The notes under the pieces were generated by a model, which ran no database searches, was not told where the DNA came from, and worked only from the letters and a program-made list of their open reading frames with translations. The position numbers were made by a program, and so were the translations under genes. This document shows, one piece after another, positions 21,327 to 31,117 of a stretch of DNA of 39,866 nt (positions within the stretch are counted from its first letter, which is position 1; every line of letters starts with the position of its first letter). Source of the stretch: an uncultured Eubacteriales bacterium (GTDB lineage Bacteria; Bacillota; Sulfobacillia; UBA995; UBA9673); assembly GCA_913063835.1 (NCBI GenBank), contig CAJXZV010000009.1, positions 1 through 39,866 on the forward strand. The letters run 5' to 3'.

Positions 21327-24300
21327 CTAGGTCGCGACCCCTCTCAACACGGCCTCCACCGACGCCCTCATCTGGTCGTCCCGGTAGCACGGCAAGGTTA
21401 TGGCGTGACCGGGGCACTCGGCCGCACAGGTCCCGCACCCGCGGCACTGGACAGGATCGATCTCGGCCACACCCCGCTCGTTTATGGCCGGCACGCCGAA
21501 CGGGCAGACCCGGACGCAGGTGAGGCAGGCGGCACACTTCGTCTCCTCGACCGTGGCCACGATGCCCCCGGCCATGAGGGATTCCTTGGCCAGGATGGTG
21601 GCCGCTCTGGCCGCCGCTCCCTGGGCCTGCAGGAGGGTCTCGCCTATGGTCTTGGGAGCGTGCGCCCCCCCGCAGAGGAAGACCCCCTGTGTTGTGAGGT
21701 CCATCGGCGCCAGCTTGGCGTGGGTCTCGACGAAGAAGCCGTCTTCGTTCAGTCCCACCTTCAGACGGTTGGCCAGCGCCGCCGCCCCCTCGGACGGGAC
21801 GACACCCACGGAGAGGACGACCAGGTCGACCGGAAGGTGGATGTCGGACGCGAGGTCGCTGTCGGCCACGGTCACGAGCGGCCGGCCGTCGGACGCCTCG
21901 GAGATGACCGGGGGCCGCCCGTCGCCGCGCCTGATGAAGACGACCCCCGCCTCACGCGCCCGCCGGTAGGCGTCCTCGCGGAAGCCGTAGGTCCTGACGT
22001 CGCGGTGGATGATGAAGACCTCGGCCTCGGGGTTCCGCTCCTTGATGAGCAGGGCGTCCTTGATTGCCTGCGAGCAGCACGTCCTTGAGCAGTAGTTCGC
22101 CGGCCGGTCCTCGCCCCGCGAGCCCACGCACTGGACGAAGACCACCCGGCCGAGAGTCTCGAGCCATCCCTCGCCTTCCTCGCAGAGTCTTCTCTCGAAA
22201 TCGAGGCGCGTGATGACGGCCGGGTTCTTCCCGTAGAGAGGGTAGGGGCCGGGGGTGGGGCGGTAGGCCTCGTGGCCCGTCGCCACGATGAGGACCCCGT
22301 GCTCCACGGTGAGGCCCTCCTCTCCGGAGCCGCCCGGACCCACGCCGCGGACCTCGCCGCCGGCGCCGTCTCCCGCCGTCGCCGCCGGCCTCAGCCTCGA
22401 GGTGAAGTGGCCGGCATGACCTGAGAACTCAGCGAGTTCATAGCCCGTCAGGACGGTTATGAGCGGGTCGGCCTCGACGCGCCCGACCAGGCTGTCTGAC
22501 AGCGCCCGGACGTCAGCCACCTCCAGGGTCGAGTGAAGGTGCCTTAGGTTGCCCCCGAGGCGGCCTTCCCGCTCGACGAGCGTCACCGGGAAGCCGGCCC
22601 CGGCCAGGGAGAGGGCCGCGGCGAGGCCCGCCGGCCCGCCTCCGAGCACGAGGGCCCGGTTGACAACCGGGACGGGGAACATCGTCAGGGGCTCCAGGAG
22701 ACGGGCCTTGGCCACCGCGGCCGCGACGAGCTCCTTGGCCTTGGCCGTCGCCGCCGCCTTGGAGCCTTTGTGGACCCAGGAGCACTCCTCCCTGATGTTC
22801 ACCATGTGGAAGAGGAACTGGTTGAGCCCGGCTTCACGCATCATCTCGCGGAAGAGGGGACCGTGAGTCCTGACCGTGCACGAGGCGACCACGACCCGGT
22901 TGAGGCGGTGCTTTGCGATGAGCTCCTTGATGGCCCCGATGGAGTCCTGCGAGCACGTGTAGAGGAACTCTTCGGCGCACACCACCCCGGGTAGGGCCCT
23001 GACGGCCTCCACCACGGCCGGGACGTCGACGACCGAGGCGATGTTGATCCCGCACCGGCAGACGATGACCCCGACGCGGGGCTCCTCCCCGCTGACGTCC
23101 CGCTCGGGCGGGAAGGTCTTCGTCCGGGCCAGGGTCCCCCGGGCCAGGGCCAGGAGCCCCCCGGCCGCTCCGGCGGCGGCGCTGCCGCTCATAACCGTCT
23201 CGGGGATGTCCTTCGGGCCCTGGAAGGCCCCGGCCACGAAGACCCCGGGCCGTGTCGTCCGGCACGGGTCGAGACCGGCGAGCCCCTTCCCGACCCCCGA
23301 GGCTCCGGCCCCCGCGGAGGACGGGTGGTCCTGTGGGAGGTCCTCCGCATAGCCGTGCGGCCCGAGGTCGATCCCGGCCGCCTCCGCCAATCTGTCCGCC
23401 TCCTCCGGCGGCCGGAGGCCCGTGGCCAGGACCACGAGGTCGAACTCTTCCTCCGAGACCCGCCCGTCAGGGCCTGTCCAGGTGACGAGCAGATTGCCCG
23501 TGGCGGGGTCCTCCCGCACCGACGAGACGGCCGACCGGCGGAACACGACACCGTACTGCCGACGGGCCGACTCCACGTACCGGTCGAACCCCTTCCCGTG
23601 GGAGCGCAGGTCGATATAGAAGACCGTCGCCTGAACGTCGGGGTCGTGCTCCCTGGCGACGATGGCCTGCTTGGTCGAGAACATGCAGCAGACCGCGGAG
23701 CAGTACGGCTCGTGGGCCAGGTCGCGCGACCCCACGCACTGGATGAAGGCGATCCTCTTCGGGTGCCTTCCGTCACCGGGGCGCTCGAGGACCCCGGCCG
23801 TGGGGCCGGTCGAGCTGAGCATCCGTTCGAACTCGAGAGCGGTGACAACGTTGCGGTAGACGCCGTAGCCGTAGGCGGCCGCCGTCGGGTCGAAGGTGGA
23901 GTAGCCGGGAGCCAGGATGACCGCTCCCACCCTCAGCTCCACCGTCTCGCCCCGGTCGTCGTGGCGCACGGCCCGCTTCTCGCAGACCTTCTCACAGAGA
24001 AGGCACTCCGCGCACACCCCGCAGGCCAGGCACCGCCGGGCCTCGGCCACGGCCTCCTCCCGGCTGAGCCCGAGGCAGACCTCGTCGAAGCTCCGGCGGC
24101 GCGTGGCGGCCTCGAGCTTCCTCAAGCGCACCCGCGGCCTGGGGCTGACGCCCCTCGTGTCGATGTCGAGCTTCCGGACGGGTCCCGTCTCCCCGAAGGC
24201 GACCCGGAACTCCCGGCCCTCACGGAGGTCCATCCCCCGGAGGTAGCGGTGGATGGACTCCGCGGCCTCCTTGCCGGCGGCGACGGCCGCGACCACCGTG

Positions 24301-26039
24301 GCCGGCCCGGTGACCGCGTCCCCCCCGGCGAAGATGCCCTCCCGGTTCGTGGCCAGGGTGTAGGGGTCGACGACAAGGGTGTTCCCGCTCCCGCGCCGGA
24401 GCCCGCTGTCGGCCAGGAAGAGGAGGTCGGGCGCCTGGCTGACGGCGAAGACGACCGAGTCGCACGGCGTCTCGAACTCCGAACCCTCGATAGGGACGGG
24501 CCGCCGGCGGCCGCTCGCGTCCGGCTCGCCCAGCCTGTTCCGGACGGCACGGACACCCGTCACCTTCCCCCTCCCGGTCCCCACAGCCCCGCCGTCCGGC
24601 CCGTCCGCCGGGGCCGCGGCTTCCCCGAGGACCTCCACCGGCGCGGTGAGGTACTCGATGCGGACGCCTTCCTCCAGGGCGTCCTCGACCTCCTCGGGCA
24701 GGGCGGTCATCTCGGTCTCCGAACGGCGGTAGAAGATCGTGACCTCCTCCGCACCGAGCCTGAGGGCCGTGCGGGCGCAGTCCACGGCCGTGTTGCCGCC
24801 GCCGACGACGACGACCCGGCGGCCGACGGGAACCCGCTCACCGAGGTTCACCCGGCGGAGGAAGGAGACCCCGTGGTAGACGCCCTCCAGGTCCTCGCCG
24901 GGGACGCCGACCCGCTGGGGTTCGTGCGCTCCGACACCCAGGAAGACGGCCTTGTAGCCGTCCTCGAAAAGAGAGTCGAGGGACCTGTCGGTGCCTATGG
25001 CGACCCCTGTCCTGATCTCGACCCCTTCTCTGCGGATGAGCTCTATCTCGGCCTCGAGGAGGCGCCGCGGCAGCCGGTATTCGGGGATGCCCACTCTGAG
25101 CATGCCGCCCACGACCGGAAGGGCCTCGAAGACCGTGACGGGGTAGCCGCGGCGTGCGAGATGGTAGGCGCAGGAGAGACCCGCCGGGCCGGAGCCGACG
25201 ACGGCCACCTTCTCCTCCCGGGGGACCTTCTCGTCCCGCAGGGTGTAGGCCGCCGTCCACTCCTTGCGGCCGGCCGGGCCCTCGGGCGCCTCGGGGACGG
25301 AGTCGGCGAGGACGTGCTCGCCGACGAAGCGCTTCAGGCGATGGATGGCCACCGGCTCGTCCACATCGCCTCGCTGGCAGACGTCCTCGCACGGGTGGTG
25401 GCAGACCGTCCCGCAGATGAGCGGGAAGGGGTTGTCCCGGCGGATGACCTCCCAGGCCTCATGGAAGCGCTCCCGGGCGATGAGGGAGACGTAGGCCTGC
25501 ACGTTCACCCCGGCCGGGCAGGCGGTGCGGCAGGGAGACACCCCCCGCTTCTCGATGAGGTACTTGTTCGGGACGGCCTGAGGGAACTGCTTGTAGACGG
25601 CCTTCCGGTCGCTTAGCCCGGCGTTGAAGGCGTCGGGCACCGTGACCGGGCAGACCTCGGCACAGTCCCCGCAGGCCGTGCACTCCTCGAGGTCGATGTA
25701 GCGGGGGGCCTTGTGCACCACGGCGGTGAAGTCGCCCGGCCGTCCCTTGAGTTCCACCAGGGTGGCAAGCGTATGGACGGTGACGTTGGGGTGACCGAAG
25801 ACATCCGTCATCTTCGGGCCCAGAAGACACATCGAACACTCGTTGGTCGGAAAGGTCTTGTCGAGCTGGGCCATGCGGCCGCCCAGCGAAGGGTCCTTGG
25901 TGAGAAGGTGCACCCGGAAGCCGGCCTCCGCAAGGTCGAGCGCGGACTGGACTCCCCCGATGCCTCCTCCGACGACCAAGACGGCGCCGACCGCGTCCGG
26001 GCGCCCTTCCCGGCCGGGACCCAAGGACTCTACAGCCAT
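21327..26039 (-). CDS. Giant HdrA-GltD/NfnB-HdrA fusion oxidoreductase
   Basis: The 1570-residue flavin/Fe-S protein has this order. An HdrA FAD fold (18-75) with NECSMCLLGPKM is followed by cluster Cys 120, 123, 126, 130. An inserted GltD/NfnB-like module follows, with Cys 170, 174, 209, 213, 217, 221, FAD site VVGSGPAGLSCAYHLARRG (280-298) and NAD(P)H site VVVGGGNTAVDCA. Next come a Cys-rich motif (670-686) and the rest of HdrA with IQCVGSRD (767-774). A second HdrA then runs from CRCGIN (994-999), with FAD site VLGGGPAGLAAAL, VQCVGSRG and a final 2[4Fe-4S] ferredoxin (1502-1542). HdrA bifurcates electrons among ferredoxin, NAD(P)H and disulfide partners. Single-copy HdrA is about 650 residues; this is more than twice that. 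ATG 26039 has GGAGG eight bases upstream. No hdrB, hdrC or hydrogenase gene is adjacent, so it may be a self-contained electron-bifurcating hub. Confidence 0.88.
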   Translation of the reverse strand: MAVESLGPGREGRPDAVGAVLVVGGGIGGVQSALDLAEAGFRVHLLTKDPSLGGRMAQLDKTFPTNECSMCLLGPKMTDVFGHPNVTVHTLATLVELKGRPGDFTAVVHKAPRYIDLEECTACGDCAEVCPVTVPDAFNAGLSDRKAVYKQFPQAVPNKYLIEKRGVSPCRTACPAGVNVQAYVSLIARERFHEAWEVIRRDNPFPLICGTVCHHPCEDVCQRGDVDEPVAIHRLKRFVGEHVLADSVPEAPEGPAGRKEWTAAYTLRDEKVPREEKVAVVGSGPAGLSCAYHLARRGYPVTVFEALPVVGGMLRVGIPEYRLPRRLLEAEIELIRREGVEIRTGVAIGTDRSLDSLFEDGYKAVFLGVGAHEPQRVGVPGEDLEGVYHGVSFLRRVNLGERVPVGRRVVVVGGGNTAVDCARTALRLGAEEVTIFYRRSETEMTALPEEVEDALEEGVRIEYLTAPVEVLGEAAAPADGPDGGAVGTGRGKVTGVRAVRNRLGEPDASGRRRPVPIEGSEFETPCDSVVFAVSQAPDLLFLADSGLRRGSGNTLVVDPYTLATNREGIFAGGDAVTGPATVVAAVAAGKEAAESIHRYLRGMDLREGREFRVAFGETGPVRKLDIDTRGVSPRPRVRLRKLEAATRRRSFDEVCLGLSREEAVAEARRCLACGVCAECLLCEKVCEKRAVRHDDRGETVELRVGAVILAPGYSTFDPTAAAYGYGVYRNVVTALEFERMLSSTGPTAGVLERPGDGRHPKRIAFIQCVGSRDLAHEPYCSAVCCMFSTKQAIVAREHDPDVQATVFYIDLRSHGKGFDRYVESARRQYGVVFRRSAVSSVREDPATGNLLVTWTGPDGRVSEEEFDLVVLATGLRPPEEADRLAEAAGIDLGPHGYAEDLPQDHPSSAGAGASGVGKGLAGLDPCRTTRPGVFVAGAFQGPKDIPETVMSGSAAAGAAGGLLALARGTLARTKTFPPERDVSGEEPRVGVIVCRCGINIASVVDVPAVVEAVRALPGVVCAEEFLYTCSQDSIGAIKELIAKHRLNRVVVASCTVRTHGPLFREMMREAGLNQFLFHMVNIREECSWVHKGSKAAATAKAKELVAAAVAKARLLEPLTMFPVPVVNRALVLGGGPAGLAAALSLAGAGFPVTLVEREGRLGGNLRHLHSTLEVADVRALSDSLVGRVEADPLITVLTGYELAEFSGHAGHFTSRLRPAATAGDGAGGEVRGVGPGGSGEEGLTVEHGVLIVATGHEAYRPTPGPYPLYGKNPAVITRLDFERRLCEEGEGWLETLGRVVFVQCVGSRGEDRPANYCSRTCCSQAIKDALLIKERNPEAEVFIIHRDVRTYGFREDAYRRAREAGVVFIRRGDGRPPVISEASDGRPLVTVADSDLASDIHLPVDLVVLSVGVVPSEGAAALANRLKVGLNEDGFFVETHAKLAPMDLTTQGVFLCGGAHAPKTIGETLLQAQGAAARAATILAKESLMAGGIVATVEETKCAACLTCVRVCPFGVPAINERGVAEIDPVQCRGCGTCAAECPGHAITLPCYRDDQMRASVEAVLRGVAT

Positions 26040-26569: not shown

Positions 26570-27985
26570 TTGAGGTGCAAGAACCCGGTCGGCGTAGCCG
26601 TCGTGATCGTGTTGCTGGTGGGTGTCGGTGTCTCGGGCTGTTCGCCCGGGGCCGGCCAGGAGTCGACGACAGACCTTGACCCGATATGGTTCCGGGGGCC
26701 GTACTCCGGCGAGGTCGGGCAGGGCGAGGTCGCATACCGGTGGGCCGTGAGAGACTCCAGCGTCGTGGTCGACGAGGGCACCGCCAGGACTCTCATCCCC
26801 GACTACTCCTTGGGAAACGCGGACTTCCCGTTCGAGACCCCGCTGTCTCTGGTCGAGCCGGACGGGACGCGCCTGGCGCTCCCGTTCGTCGCCGGCGGCT
26901 TCCCGGTGGGCTTCTCGGCCGGCGGGGACAGCTATGCCGTGATGACGTTCGCCCTCACCCTCTCCCCGAAGTGGGGGCAGTTCGGGATTTACAACATGCC
27001 CCTCCTCACCCTCTCGTGGTATGACGCCGACGGCGGACTCATCTACGAAGCCCAGAGGCGTTACCCCGAGACCGCCGAGGATGTCCTGACCATCCTGCTC
27101 CCCGGAGTGTGCCGTCTCGTGGACGGCGGACGGAGACTGCTGGTGGCCTGGCCGCCGGACGGCTGGGAGCCCCAGGCCGGAGAACAGTGGGAGACCCTGC
27201 TCGTCGACAGGTCGGGCACCGCGCTGGTGCTTCACCGCTCGACCAGCCCGCCGGTCGTCTCCGACGACGGGACCCTGCTCCTCTACGTCGCAACCGACGA
27301 CGACGGCAAGGGCTCTCTCATGGCGCTCGGGACCGACGGCCGAACGAGATGGGAGACCACCTTCGAATCGGAGGTGACAGGCGGGCCGTTCGTCTCCTCC
27401 TCCGCCGACCTTGTCGTGGTCTTGACCGACAGCGGGGCCGTGGCCCTCGACCACACCGGCTCCGTCGCTTGGTCGTCCCAAGGCGCCTACCGCACCGCCG
27501 TCGTCGCCGACTCCGGCGATACGGCCCTCTTGGGCAAGGGTTTCGTCGAGTACCGCGGCCCGGACGGAACCCTCATCTGGCAGAGAGACGTGGCCCGGGA
27601 GTGCACCGTGGCCGTCTCGCGCGACGGGCTCTACGTCCTCCTCGCCGAGAACGACCCCTTGACCGACTCGGCGAAGTTCACTCTTCTGGACCGCTCGGGA
27701 AAGGACCTCGCCGGGTATCAAGCCGAGAGTCCACCGGAGAACCCCTGCGTGCCGTTCGTCTGGTTCCGGGAGGACCGTCCCTGCTTCTGCCACGGCTGGG
27801 AGGCGGGGCTCTTCCAGAAAGAGGACGTCGGGTGGGCTCCGGTGACGACCGTCCTCCTGGCCGACTTCGACGTGTCCGGCCCGTACGGGGTAAGCGCCCG
27901 GGCCCTGGCTGACGGGCGTTACCTTCTCGTGCACGTCGACGACCGGAACCTCGTCCTCTACGATGTGGAGGACATCGTGCCGTAG
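26570..27985 (+). CDS. Secreted lipoprotein with beta-propeller-like repeats
   Basis: The 471-residue protein has a signal peptide (about 1-23) and lipobox VSGC (Cys24), so it is membrane-anchored and exposed outside the cytoplasm. The remainder contains recurring beta-strand blades ending in D-G/S-G patterns, such as LLVDRSGTALVLHR, MALGTDGRTRWETTFE, VALDHTGSVAWSSQ and TLLDRSGKDLAGY. This resembles PQQ/WD40-like propellers. No catalytic residues are recognisable; it may bind ligands or scaffold other proteins. TTG 26570 follows GAGGAGG. It ends inside the 3' end of the convergent TPR/MutL-like gene (28-base overlap). Confidence 0.65.
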   Translation: MRCKNPVGVAVVIVLLVGVGVSGCSPGAGQESTTDLDPIWFRGPYSGEVGQGEVAYRWAVRDSSVVVDEGTARTLIPDYSLGNADFPFETPLSLVEPDGTRLALPFVAGGFPVGFSAGGDSYAVMTFALTLSPKWGQFGIYNMPLLTLSWYDADGGLIYEAQRRYPETAEDVLTILLPGVCRLVDGGRRLLVAWPPDGWEPQAGEQWETLLVDRSGTALVLHRSTSPPVVSDDGTLLLYVATDDDGKGSLMALGTDGRTRWETTFESEVTGGPFVSSSADLVVVLTDSGAVALDHTGSVAWSSQGAYRTAVVADSGDTALLGKGFVEYRGPDGTLIWQRDVARECTVAVSRDGLYVLLAENDPLTDSAKFTLLDRSGKDLAGYQAESPPENPCVPFVWFREDRPCFCHGWEAGLFQKEDVGWAPVTTVLLADFDVSGPYGVSARALADGRYLLVHVDDRNLVLYDVEDIVP

Positions 27986-30336
27986 GCCGCCTCCGGCCCG
28001 CTCCGGCCGACGACCTCCGAGGCCCAGGCGGCCCTGAGGGTGGTGCGGGCCTGCCGGTCGTCGGGCAGTCGGAGCGGCCGCCCCCGGCCGTCCAGAAGGA
28101 GGCCCAGCCCTCCGGCGAGGAACTCCCCTCTCCATTCGACGCCCCGGCCCCGGCCGACGCTGTAGGGAGGTGCGGGCCGGACGATGAGCTCGATGCGCCT
28201 GCCGGCCGGGAGAGGGACCCACCGGAGCTCCCCCCGGCAGAGGTCCCAGGTGCGTTCGCCGTCCCGCCAGGCACCCTTCACCGAGACCCTGAGCACGAGC
28301 TTGCGCCCGGGCCGGCCCCACTTGACCGCCTGCACGAGAGGAGCCACGCAGAGACAGCTCCCCGCCAGGAGGGCCGCCGTGCCGTCGGTCCAGGACGAGT
28401 CGCCGGGTCGGAGCCGCCCGGTGCGGGCGCCGTCCCCCAGGGCGGCGGTGATGCCGTAGGGGTCGAGCAGGACCCGGGTGATCCCCACCGGCTGGCATCC
28501 GTCAACCGCCGCAAGGAGGGCGTGTTCGGCGCTCGGCAGGCGCGAGACCAGACTCCCGCCGACAAGGAGGTGACTGGACCTTATGCCGGTGAGTGTCTCC
28601 GCCAGGACGGCCTGACGCAGGCCGAACACGGCCCGCTGGAGCACCCCTGACACCACCCCGGCGGCCACCAGGGCCTCCGCGTCCCCCAGCTCGTCTCCGG
28701 CAGCCCCTTCACCGAGAAGCCTGCCCACGAGCAGCGCGGTGTCGCCCGGAGGCAGGACATGCGGGACCTCGTCGAAGAGCTCGTCCAGAAGCCGCCCCCG
28801 CAGGCTGCCTTCCGGCCCGAAGGTGAAGCCCTGCACCTCGCCGTCCCTCACCGCAAGGGCCTCGACGGCCTCAGGCTCAGCCGCAAGGGTCACGAGGTCG
28901 TAAGGAGGACGACGGCCGATGTGCCGCCTCTCGCCGCTGTCGAGCCACTTCAGCACAGGAGCGAGACCGACGGCCCCGCGGGCGAGAGCGCCCCGGACGG
29001 CGGGAGTCCCGTCGCGCCGCTCCTTCACCCGCTCCTCGATGAAGGCCACCGTCGCCTCCAGGCCGTCCCGAGCCCGGCTGGGCTCGGCCTGTTCCTCCTC
29101 TGCTGCGTCCGCCTCGTCTTCCGCCTCCGGGGCGGGCGGGCGGATGTCAGGCACGCTCGTGAAGCTGAGGCCGTCGAAGATGACCCTGAGGTCCGGCAGC
29201 ATGTCCTCAGGCCCGTTGTACAGGAACTGGACCGGGCCGGCCCGTGACCTCAGCCGGCCCGCCCGCGCCCGCTCCGCCAGCGAGGCGCAGAACTCGGCCG
29301 TGACCCCGGAGGCCAGGACGACGATGTCAGGCTCCTCGTCCTCCACCCCGGCGGACTGTCCCGCCACACCGACAAGACGGCCCCCACCGAGGTAGACGGC
29401 CATCCGGCTCCGGACGACCCCCTCGCTGACGGGGTCGTCCGCGGCTACGAGGACCCTCAACTCCCTCTCCCGCCCGCCGGACAGGCCCAGGACTCCCATG
29501 GGGGCGTCCGTCCGGGGCTCCACGCCGTCAACCCCTTCCGGCGGCCGGGCCTCGCCGTCCGCCACCCTCCGACCACCGCCGGGCCACGCCGGCACCCACG
29601 AGGGTCCCCAGCGCGGCAGGCGCTCGAAGCCCGGAGCCGGCCGCACCGCCTCCCTTCTCCCCAACCTCTGGCGGAGACGGGCGATGTGCCGTCTGGCCTC
29701 CCCGGCCAGAGGGTCGTCCCGGGGCAGGGCCTTCCTGACGGCCAGCCAGTGGGCCAGGGCCTCACGCAGCCGCCCGACGGCTTCCAGCTCACCCGCGACC
29801 GAGACGTGGGCGGGCACCAGGCCCGGGTCCAGGTCCGTGGCCGCCTCCCAAGCGGCTATGGCCTCCTCACGGTCTCCGCTCGCCGCGAGGGCCTCGGCCC
29901 TCAGCATCTGCACCCAGGGGTCACCGCCCCCCTCCGACAGGTCCCCCTCCTCGAGGATGGCCAGGGCCTCGAACGGGTTCCCGCCGAGGTGCTGGTCGAG
30001 GGCCCGGCCGAAGAACCAGACCGGGTCGGAGACCTCGGGGCCGGCCACGTCCTGCTCCATCTCGCAGAAGTCGATGAGCTCCCAGAGACAGCCGAGGAAA
30101 GACCAGACCGCCTCGTAGTGCCGGTGAAGAGGAGACGGCCGGCCCCTCTCGGCCGGCGGGAGGGCCAGGGCCATGTCGCGGATGTCGCGGGCGGCGGCCA
30201 CGGCGGCCCTGGCCAGGGTGAAGGCGGCGCGGATGGAGCGGTTCAGACGGGCCGGGTCCTCCGGGTTCTCGCTCAGGTCCTCGTCTCTCTCGAGGTAGTG
30301 ACGCACGGCTCTTCGCACGTGGTCGCGCGCGTCCAA
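27958..30336 (-). CDS. TPR protein with C-terminal MutL-like (glutamate mutase activator) ASKHA domain
   Basis: The 792-residue protein has an N-terminal helical region with TPR-like repeats (about 110-215: DPWVQMLRAEALAASGDREE, AWEAATDLDPGLVPAHVSVA). A linker rich in Pro/Arg follows. The C-terminal half resembles MutL/GlmL: PDIVVLASG (336-344), LLVGGSLVSRLPSAEHAL, RVLLDPYGITAALG and the long-form ending VGRGRGVEWRGEFLAGGLGL with LLLDGRGRPLRLP. MutL reactivates or protects adenosylcobalamin mutases. The usual DVGGATTD phosphate-binding motif is not recognisable (YDLVTLAAEPEAVEAL in its place), so ATP binding is doubtful. TTG 30336 has a perfect AGGAGGT six bases upstream. The open frame up to 30753 covers a promoter and is not coding. 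No mutase gene is visible. Confidence 0.55.
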   Translation of the reverse strand: MDARDHVRRAVRHYLERDEDLSENPEDPARLNRSIRAAFTLARAAVAAARDIRDMALALPPAERGRPSPLHRHYEAVWSFLGCLWELIDFCEMEQDVAGPEVSDPVWFFGRALDQHLGGNPFEALAILEEGDLSEGGGDPWVQMLRAEALAASGDREEAIAAWEAATDLDPGLVPAHVSVAGELEAVGRLREALAHWLAVRKALPRDDPLAGEARRHIARLRQRLGRREAVRPAPGFERLPRWGPSWVPAWPGGGRRVADGEARPPEGVDGVEPRTDAPMGVLGLSGGRERELRVLVAADDPVSEGVVRSRMAVYLGGGRLVGVAGQSAGVEDEEPDIVVLASGVTAEFCASLAERARAGRLRSRAGPVQFLYNGPEDMLPDLRVIFDGLSFTSVPDIRPPAPEAEDEADAAEEEQAEPSRARDGLEATVAFIEERVKERRDGTPAVRGALARGAVGLAPVLKWLDSGERRHIGRRPPYDLVTLAAEPEAVEALAVRDGEVQGFTFGPEGSLRGRLLDELFDEVPHVLPPGDTALLVGRLLGEGAAGDELGDAEALVAAGVVSGVLQRAVFGLRQAVLAETLTGIRSSHLLVGGSLVSRLPSAEHALLAAVDGCQPVGITRVLLDPYGITAALGDGARTGRLRPGDSSWTDGTAALLAGSCLCVAPLVQAVKWGRPGRKLVLRVSVKGAWRDGERTWDLCRGELRWVPLPAGRRIELIVRPAPPYSVGRGRGVEWRGEFLAGGLGLLLDGRGRPLRLPDDRQARTTLRAAWASEVVGRSGPEAAYGTMSSTS

Positions 30337-30583
30337 CGGTGACCTCCTCCCCGTCACTCGGTACTCGGCGGCCGACTGGTTCTCCCGGCCGCCGGACGTG
30401 TCCTGTCTCGGCGGCCGTCCGGCGTTCGACACGGTCCGGCGCCAAATCCGGCCCGCCGAGGCTCTGGAGGCAGAGGGCATGTCGAGCAGACGGGACCCGA
30501 CGGAGAAGACGTCAGATACCGAAAGAATTCGCTTCAGCCGGACGACACCGAGCGCCACACCGCCGCCGGCAGGTCTGGAAGGG

Positions 30584-30612
30584 TTGACCTTTACGTAAAC
30601 GTAAGGTAGCAT
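30584..30612 (+). promoter_or_regulatory. MerR-type promoter/operator (LiuR-like box)
   Basis: TTGACC (30584-30589) and TAGCAT (30607-30612) are separated by 17 bases. The spacer is filled by the partly palindromic CCTTTACGTAAACGTAAGG (30588-30606). Operators between the -35 and -10 boxes are typical of MerR regulators. This one closely resembles LiuR boxes that control acyl-CoA and branched-chain amino acid catabolism. It should control the MerR gene and the acyl-CoA dehydrogenase behind it. The gene-free stretch 30337-30673 holds this site only. Confidence 0.75.
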
Positions 30613-30676
30613 AGGCGGTAGGGTCAACCAAACGGATGGTAGACCGCGCCCGGGACCTTCCGGTGCCTCCGGGGTG

Positions 30677-31117
30677 ATGGATTTGACCGAAGGCGATGAC
30701 CGCACCTGGACCATCTCCGAGATATCGTCCGAGTTCGGGGTCACTCCGCGCACCCTGCGCTACTACGAAGAACTCGGCCTGCTCTCCCCTGACCGCTCCC
30801 GGGACAACGGACAGCGCCTGTACAGCCGACGGGACCGGGCCCGCCTGAAGCTCGTCCTGCGCGGACGGCGTTTCGGCTTCTCCCTCAAGGACCTCAAGGA
30901 GCTCCTCGACCTGTACGACACAGACCCCACACGCAAGGAGCAGATACGCCGCACCCTTGAGATAGGAGCCAAGCGCATAGAGGAGATAGACGAGATGATC
31001 CGGGAACTCCAGGTCCACCGCCAGGAACTCCTGGACTACCGCGACCGGCTCGTGAGGTTCCTCGAAGGCAAGGCTACCGCCGAGGAACTCGACCTTCCCC
31101 TCGACGATACGGAATGA
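30677..31117 (+). CDS. MerR-family regulator (LiuR-like)
   Basis: This protein of about 146 residues has a winged helix (WTISEISSEFGVTPRTLRYY, EELGLLSPDRSRDNGQRLYS; about 10-50) and RRDRARLKLVLRGRRFGFSL. A long antiparallel coiled-coil (about 80-135) then forms the dimer. There are no Cys clusters as in metal-sensing MerR proteins, which suggests an organic ligand such as an acyl-CoA. It is divergent from the MutL-like gene and 27 bases ahead of the acyl-CoA dehydrogenase, with a LiuR-type box in its own promoter. This fits autoregulation and control of acyl-CoA oxidation. GTG 30674 directly before ATG 30677 is an alternative start. Confidence 0.85.
   Translation: MDLTEGDDRTWTISEISSEFGVTPRTLRYYEELGLLSPDRSRDNGQRLYSRRDRARLKLVLRGRRFGFSLKDLKELLDLYDTDPTRKEQIRRTLEIGAKRIEEIDEMIRELQVHRQELLDYRDRLVRFLEGKATAEELDLPLDDTE

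Follow-up and report, generated by a model that had tools for sequence, protein, structure and literature searches.

A gene on the minus strand of contig CAJXZV010000009.1 (assembly GCA_913063835.1), from an uncultured Eubacteriales bacterium of the GTDB class Sulfobacillia, encodes a protein, here called TPR-MutL, in which a tetratricopeptide repeat (TPR) region is fused to a C-terminal half derived from long-form MutL. The window analysed is the whole stretch of 39,866 nucleotides. TPR-MutL appears to descend from a long-form MutL-like protein of the ASKHA type and to have become a pseudo-enzyme. It may serve as a MutL-derived, ATP-independent adaptor or chaperone, and we give this mechanism as a whole a probability of about 0.5. 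An earlier, sequence-only reading of the same DNA had placed the open reading frame (ORF) at its exact coordinates and had described it as a TPR-MutL fusion with a lost DVGGATTD-type motif, which may be a scaffold or chaperone and not an ATPase. The fusion and the motif loss are confirmed below. The proposed role is probably still the best reading, both phosphate motifs being lost, although one argument offered for it, the absence of a neighbouring mutase, does not hold.

Homology to long-form MutL and loss of the nucleotide site

A profile built here from 26 long-form MutLs matched TPR-MutL, searched as the whole protein, with an E-value of 1.7e-24 (E-values at Z = 1e6), and the same profile reported no match when the C-terminal 562 residues were shuffled 200 times. 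The bulk of the score comes from the C-terminal extension (residues 663-775; 74.7 bits, E 3.2e-19), which is present in all four orthologs. The curated MutL/GlmL models of Pfam and NCBIfam (PF13941, TIGR01319, NF040745) gave nothing against TPR-MutL at E<=10, a PF13941 search of the source genome gave no match at its position, and querying the PDB with the sequence of the C-terminal half returned nothing relevant. The curated models miss the protein because they end before the extension domain. When a canonical long-form MutL from this genome is searched, the GlmL models cover its residues 9-484 only and score below their curated cut-offs. The hidden Markov model link to MutL, on which the sequence-only reading had staked its case beforehand, thus fails with the curated models and is strong with the long-form model. 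On this profile evidence, TPR-MutL is very likely homologous to long-form MutL. It keeps the C-terminal extension of MutL and, on weaker evidence, the middle α/β domain as well as what is left of the second ASKHA lobe. In this lobe, the stretch 575-640 aligns, at a weak score, with MutL 427-472, where the adenosine-side glycine motif lies, VGGSL being kept.

TPR-MutL resembles the GlmL/MutL family (methylaspartate mutase accessory protein) in its second-lobe remnants and, weakly, in its middle domain. It differs in having neither the first lobe nor either phosphate motif, in its added TPR region, in an extra C-terminal domain outside the family models, and in having no mutase in reach. The long-form MutLs of the class (PF13941 positive, 600-660 residues, below the GlmL equivalog cut-offs) do have the C-terminal extension, at 33-35% identity. 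They retain both D.GSTTTK and DIGGATTD, and downstream of them lies a partner gene with barrel-sandwich hybrid (BSH) and KOW features, whereas TPR-MutL has neither the motifs nor the partner gene.

The nucleotide-binding motifs are referred to as phosphate 1, phosphate 2 and adenosine, according to their roles in the ASKHA fold. We aligned 65 proteins, comprising 49 canonical MutLs, 12 degenerate MutL-like proteins without TPR, and the four TPR-MutL orthologs. By strict pattern, phosphate 2 is present in all canonical sequences (49/49) and phosphate 1 in 47 of them. The phosphate-2 position of the TPR-MutL orthologs reads AAEPEAV, DAQPHSV, DAQPHAI and LAEPQGV, so that the motif is lost in 4/4. 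The loss goes beyond what had been claimed: the whole N-terminal lobe with the first phosphate motif (DVGSTTTK) is absent and the TPR region stands in its place, with no residues aligned at phosphate 1 apart from a chance fragment in one ortholog. TPR-MutL has no complete ASKHA domain ahead of the C-terminal extension. Since the lobe carrying DVGSTTTK is missing and DVGGATTD is replaced in all four orthologs, TPR-MutL very probably has no ATPase activity. Degenerate relatives show intermediate phosphate-2 forms (DLGGESVD, DLEPGAVT, AAEPAEVA, ADPDRVEV), and aligning TPR-MutL with them supports the motif loss.

Degenerate relatives and the genomic context of long-form MutL

Trees of the C-terminal part were computed from 65 sequences and then from 62, with the closest long-branch relatives removed. 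In the 62-sequence tree, a clade of 13 (four TPR-MutLs and nine degenerate proteins) is separated from the 49 canonical sequences with support of 100/98.9. In the 65-sequence tree, TPR-MutL lies beside the ABC-linked degenerate paralogs of its own GTDB family (G000:C149, G001:C36, G002:C71; 99/90). With these paralogs left out it falls, weakly (90/50), beside degenerate proteins of two other genomes (G046, G027). As judged from these sequences, TPR-MutL groups with degenerate MutL-like proteins in a clade that is well supported. The degenerate proteins encoded in ABC-FtsX operons form one clade with it, have lost the phosphate motifs and in part carry LYNGP; they differ in keeping a first-lobe remnant, a transporter operon and the partner gene, whereas TPR-MutL stands alone as a gene and has the TPR half. 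No family name for these ABC-FtsX-linked proteins was found in the libraries searched.

Gene neighbours were compared around 65 MutL-like ORFs at 52 loci. These regions were chosen from search matches and are not a random sample, and the ABC, FtsX and partner labels come from profiles built here from few members. Most sampled members of the degenerate clade other than TPR-MutL lie in operons of the order ABC-FtsX-FtsX-MutL-partner. ABC or FtsX genes lie upstream of 10 of the 11 degenerate non-TPR genes that have upstream sequence (12 in total). The gene directly upstream is an FtsX-type permease on the same strand in nine, an ABC ATPase in one, and neither in one (L100); an FtsX gene occupies this position in 5/49 canonical genes. 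Of the 61 MutL-like genes without TPR in the sample, 60 have the partner gene directly downstream and on the same strand; the remaining one (L114) runs into a contig end. The partner gene follows none of the four TPR-MutL genes. The barrel-sandwich and KOW features of the partner are indicated by an RnfC_N match (2.7e-6, above cut-off in one protein) and by weak KOW matches. One cluster of the source genome (G000:C66, L041) contains a MutL gene, a BSH/KOW-like partner gene, DUF6754 and small unnamed genes.

The membrane protein DUF6754 occurs in 49 of the 154 genomes of the class, a single genome giving as many as 15 reported matches. Every one of these 49 belongs to the 56 genomes with a MutL-like match (Fisher p 5e-33, shared ancestry of the genomes being ignored). 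On 21 contigs chosen from among the matches listed, the nearest DUF6754 and MutL genes start 1.8-9.4 kb apart, and 3.9-4.5 kb apart in 16 of them. Glutamate mutase E was matched at E<=0.001 in 29/154 genomes, 15 of these above cut-off. It is near full length in two (G041, G151), neither of which has a MutL-like match; the remaining matches are partial and weak, and include several MutL-positive genomes. Thus, long-form MutL in this class co-occurs with DUF6754 and not with glutamate mutase. A search of the source genome for mutases and canonical MutL, as the sequence-only reading had proposed, found no glutamate mutase E, two methylmalonyl-CoA-mutase-type proteins (C16, C49) that are not on its MutL contigs, and four canonical MutLs. 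Fourteen ORF queries from the mutase and B12-domain places of this genome gave no match among the ORFs of the 52 loci, the TPR-MutL window included. The earlier observation that no B12 mutase gene adjoins TPR-MutL is therefore correct at the locus, but it is uninformative as an argument because the long-form MutLs of the class are not mutase neighbours either.

Gene order and co-occurrence suggest, but do not prove, a membrane-linked system for the long-form MutL of this class. Tentatively, and with a probability slightly below even, these proteins could be cytosolic ATPases or pseudo-ATPases of undescribed membrane complexes instead of mutase accessories. MutL and its barrel-sandwich/KOW partner would then act together with DUF6754 membrane proteins or ABC-FtsX permeases, and TPR-MutL would be a free-standing adaptor that arose from the inactive branch of this system. 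A literature search at abstract level, covering few subscription journals, found no description of DUF6754, of a link between long-form MutL and ABC transporters, of such a membrane-linked system, or of TPR-MutL.

Gene, domains and surroundings of TPR-MutL

TPR-MutL is preceded by a strong ribosome-binding sequence ahead of its TTG start (Table 1). Orthologs of the same architecture are encoded by all three other genomes of the GTDB family (G001-G003), with 62-68% identity. A class-wide search of 154 genomes gave no comparable match in the other 150. The four members scored E 1e-170 or better and two degenerate proteins without TPR scored equally high; architecture was therefore judged by ortholog comparison, since the E-value alone also admits these two. 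In a sample of the phylum (398 genomes), the full model was matched in the source genome only, other matches being confined to the C-terminal part or, in G434 and G290, to the TPR part. TPR-MutL is thus restricted to one GTDB family. Named copies occur in metagenome-assembled genomes labelled Bacillota or Symbiobacterium. For the six ortholog pairs, the nonsynonymous rate (dN) is ~0.25-0.32 and the synonymous rate (dS) ~0.84-1.09, giving a dN/dS of ~0.24-0.32 that indicates purifying selection. Because orthologs are present in 4/4 family genomes and dN/dS is low, the gene is considered to be maintained as a coding gene.

Table 1. Features of the TPR-MutL gene and its surroundings, in window coordinates.
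Feature	Position	Strand	Evidence or remark
TPR-MutL gene, 792 residues plus stop, TTG start	27958..30336	minus	translation, orthologs, purifying selection
Shine-Dalgarno-like GGGGAGGAGGT, directly before the TTG	30341..30352	minus	sequence
Residues 1-135, helical N-terminal region, 59% of positions invariant (4 orthologs)	29932..30336	minus	structure model, conservation
Residues 136-226, TPR-like helical repeats	29659..29931	minus	Pfam TPR_2, phmmer to TPR structures, AF2 helices, Foldseek
Residues 227-290, variable linker with conserved RLPRWGPSWVPxWPG	29467..29658	minus	ortholog comparison
Residues 291-400, α/β (Rossmann/receiver-like) domain, collinear with MutL middle, carries LYNGP	29137..29466	minus	AF2, hhalign, alignment
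Residues 484-491, LAAEPEAV at the position of phosphate-2 motif DIGGATTD	28864..28887	minus	alignment; predicted β-hairpin there
Residues 589-601, HLLVGGSLVSRLP, putative equivalent of MutL GSGGVLSHAP (adenosine-side glycine motif)	28534..28572	minus	profile match, alignment
Residues 646-775, C-terminal extension domain as in long-form MutL; best conserved of all parts (71% invariant in 4 orthologs)	28012..28401	minus	extension model E 3.2e-19; conservation
HdrA/GltD-like 1570-residue fusion of several FAD/NAD-binding and 4Fe-4S domains	21327-26039	minus	77-78% identical in G001, G002
PQQ_2/BamB-like protein, lipoprotein-like start	26570-27985	plus	convergent with TPR-MutL, overlaps its 3' end by 28 bases
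Near-perfect palindrome ACCTTTACGTAAACGTAAGGT	30587-30607 (within 30584-30612)	plus	between -35 and -10 like hexamers; upstream of MerR gene; kept in 3/4 genomes
MerR gene	30674-31117		

The TPR signal is weak in Pfam, where TPR_2 is the best TPR match (E 6e-5, below cut-off); phmmer matched designed and OGT TPRs at E 1e-6. Structures were predicted with AF2 for the whole protein and for its C-terminal half, using an alignment of the four orthologs; the model contains TPR-type helices, for which Foldseek matched designed TPRs (prob 1.0, E ~0.03), TPR structures being its best class of match. The second part of the TPR half is invariant at 52% of positions, compared with 59% in the first. Among the MutL-derived parts, the ASKHA core (residues 441-575) is least conserved, at 38%.

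The palindrome looks like a MerR-family operator, of LiuR-like type, that may serve the MerR and acyl-CoA dehydrogenase genes. Control of TPR-MutL by the divergent MerR was considered and dropped, the palindrome lying inside the MerR promoter and not in that of TPR-MutL. The place of the PQQ_2/BamB-like gene beside TPR-MutL is taken by a different gene in G002.

Proposed role and alternative explanations

In the adaptor mechanism, the TPR domain that stands in place of the lost first ASKHA lobe would bind a hypothetical client protein. The strongly conserved C-terminal domain would occupy the docking site of the MutL relatives, either on their BSH/KOW partner or on the associated membrane complex. 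Docking would occur in trans, because TPR-MutL has no partner gene of its own. Several observations weigh against this mechanism and the descent on which it builds. The neighbourhood of TPR-MutL (HdrA-like gene, MerR, acyl-CoA dehydrogenase) contains neither transporter nor partner gene, and its tie to membrane complexes therefore rests on its relatives. Long-branch attraction may affect its exact sister group in the 65-sequence tree. For the ASKHA-derived part, the sequence link to MutL is weak (20.5 bits, E 0.007), both structure models are of low confidence (mean pLDDT 42.8 and 44.4), and no ASKHA fold is among the Foldseek matches listed for these two models. The matches are to TPR, receiver-like and weak fibronectin-III-like folds, none with E<=0.001; the fibronectin-III-like match of the C-terminal extension comes from low-confidence coordinates and is a hint only.

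One alternative is that TPR-MutL is a new mosaic, in which only the C-terminal extension comes from MutL and the TPR region is joined to it through an unrelated pseudo-receiver of the CheY/Spo0A type. The middle domain has the best local model confidence (block-mean pLDDT ~58-90 over residues 291-400, ~81-90 in the second half of the domain). Its Foldseek matches include Spo0A and further receiver domains (TM ~0.5-0.55), and the score of the ASKHA part is low; all this speaks for the mosaic. However, hhalign places residues 335-400 collinear with MutL 190-262 (P 4e-4), and PF13941 is the top Pfam match, sub-threshold, for the middle domain of the ortholog L036 (E 0.1, profile 109-173). Moreover, no Pfam receiver is matched at E<=10, and the LYNGP of this domain is also found in the degenerate MutLs L044, L047 and L087. 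We consider the mosaic unlikely.

A little less probable still is a new role in an acyl-CoA or electron-bifurcation neighbourhood, where TPR-MutL might, for instance, help to mature the Hdr-like flavoprotein encoded next to it. An HdrA-like gene adjoins TPR-MutL also in G001 and G002, and in G002 the MerR, acyl-CoA dehydrogenase and UbiA genes lie on its other side. Yet TPR-MutL is transcribed alone, and the gene between it and HdrA differs among genomes; in G003, the gene just downstream begins, by eye, like a homoserine dehydrogenase, and the MerR operator is missing from the 700 bp upstream. Where the operator is present, it belongs to the MerR promoter. Retained nucleotide binding, with the missing lobe supplied in trans by another MutL so that the pair forms one active site, is very improbable. 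The glycine-rich adenosine-side motif (LLVGGSL) is kept and four canonical MutLs are available in the genome, but the phosphate-2 residues on TPR-MutL's own lobe are gone in all four orthologs, and an ASKHA site divided between two chains is unusual. Finally, the lost motifs might suggest a decaying gene without function, but the dN/dS values, the intact gene in 4/4 family genomes and the 71% invariance of the C-terminal domain argue strongly against a pseudogene.

If the adaptor reading and the proposed membrane link are correct, the automatic annotation as glutamate mutase L or GlmL family would mislead for a group of genes in this class. The constant companions of these genes would be a conserved partner gene and either DUF6754 or FtsX permeases. 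Branches without catalytic activity would have arisen from them, including one fused to TPR, adding a case to the evolution of ASKHA pseudo-enzymes. This would also pose a testable question, namely whether the MutL/partner pair binds and regulates a membrane complex, in an ATP-dependent manner for the canonical proteins and in an ATP-free manner for the degenerate ones.

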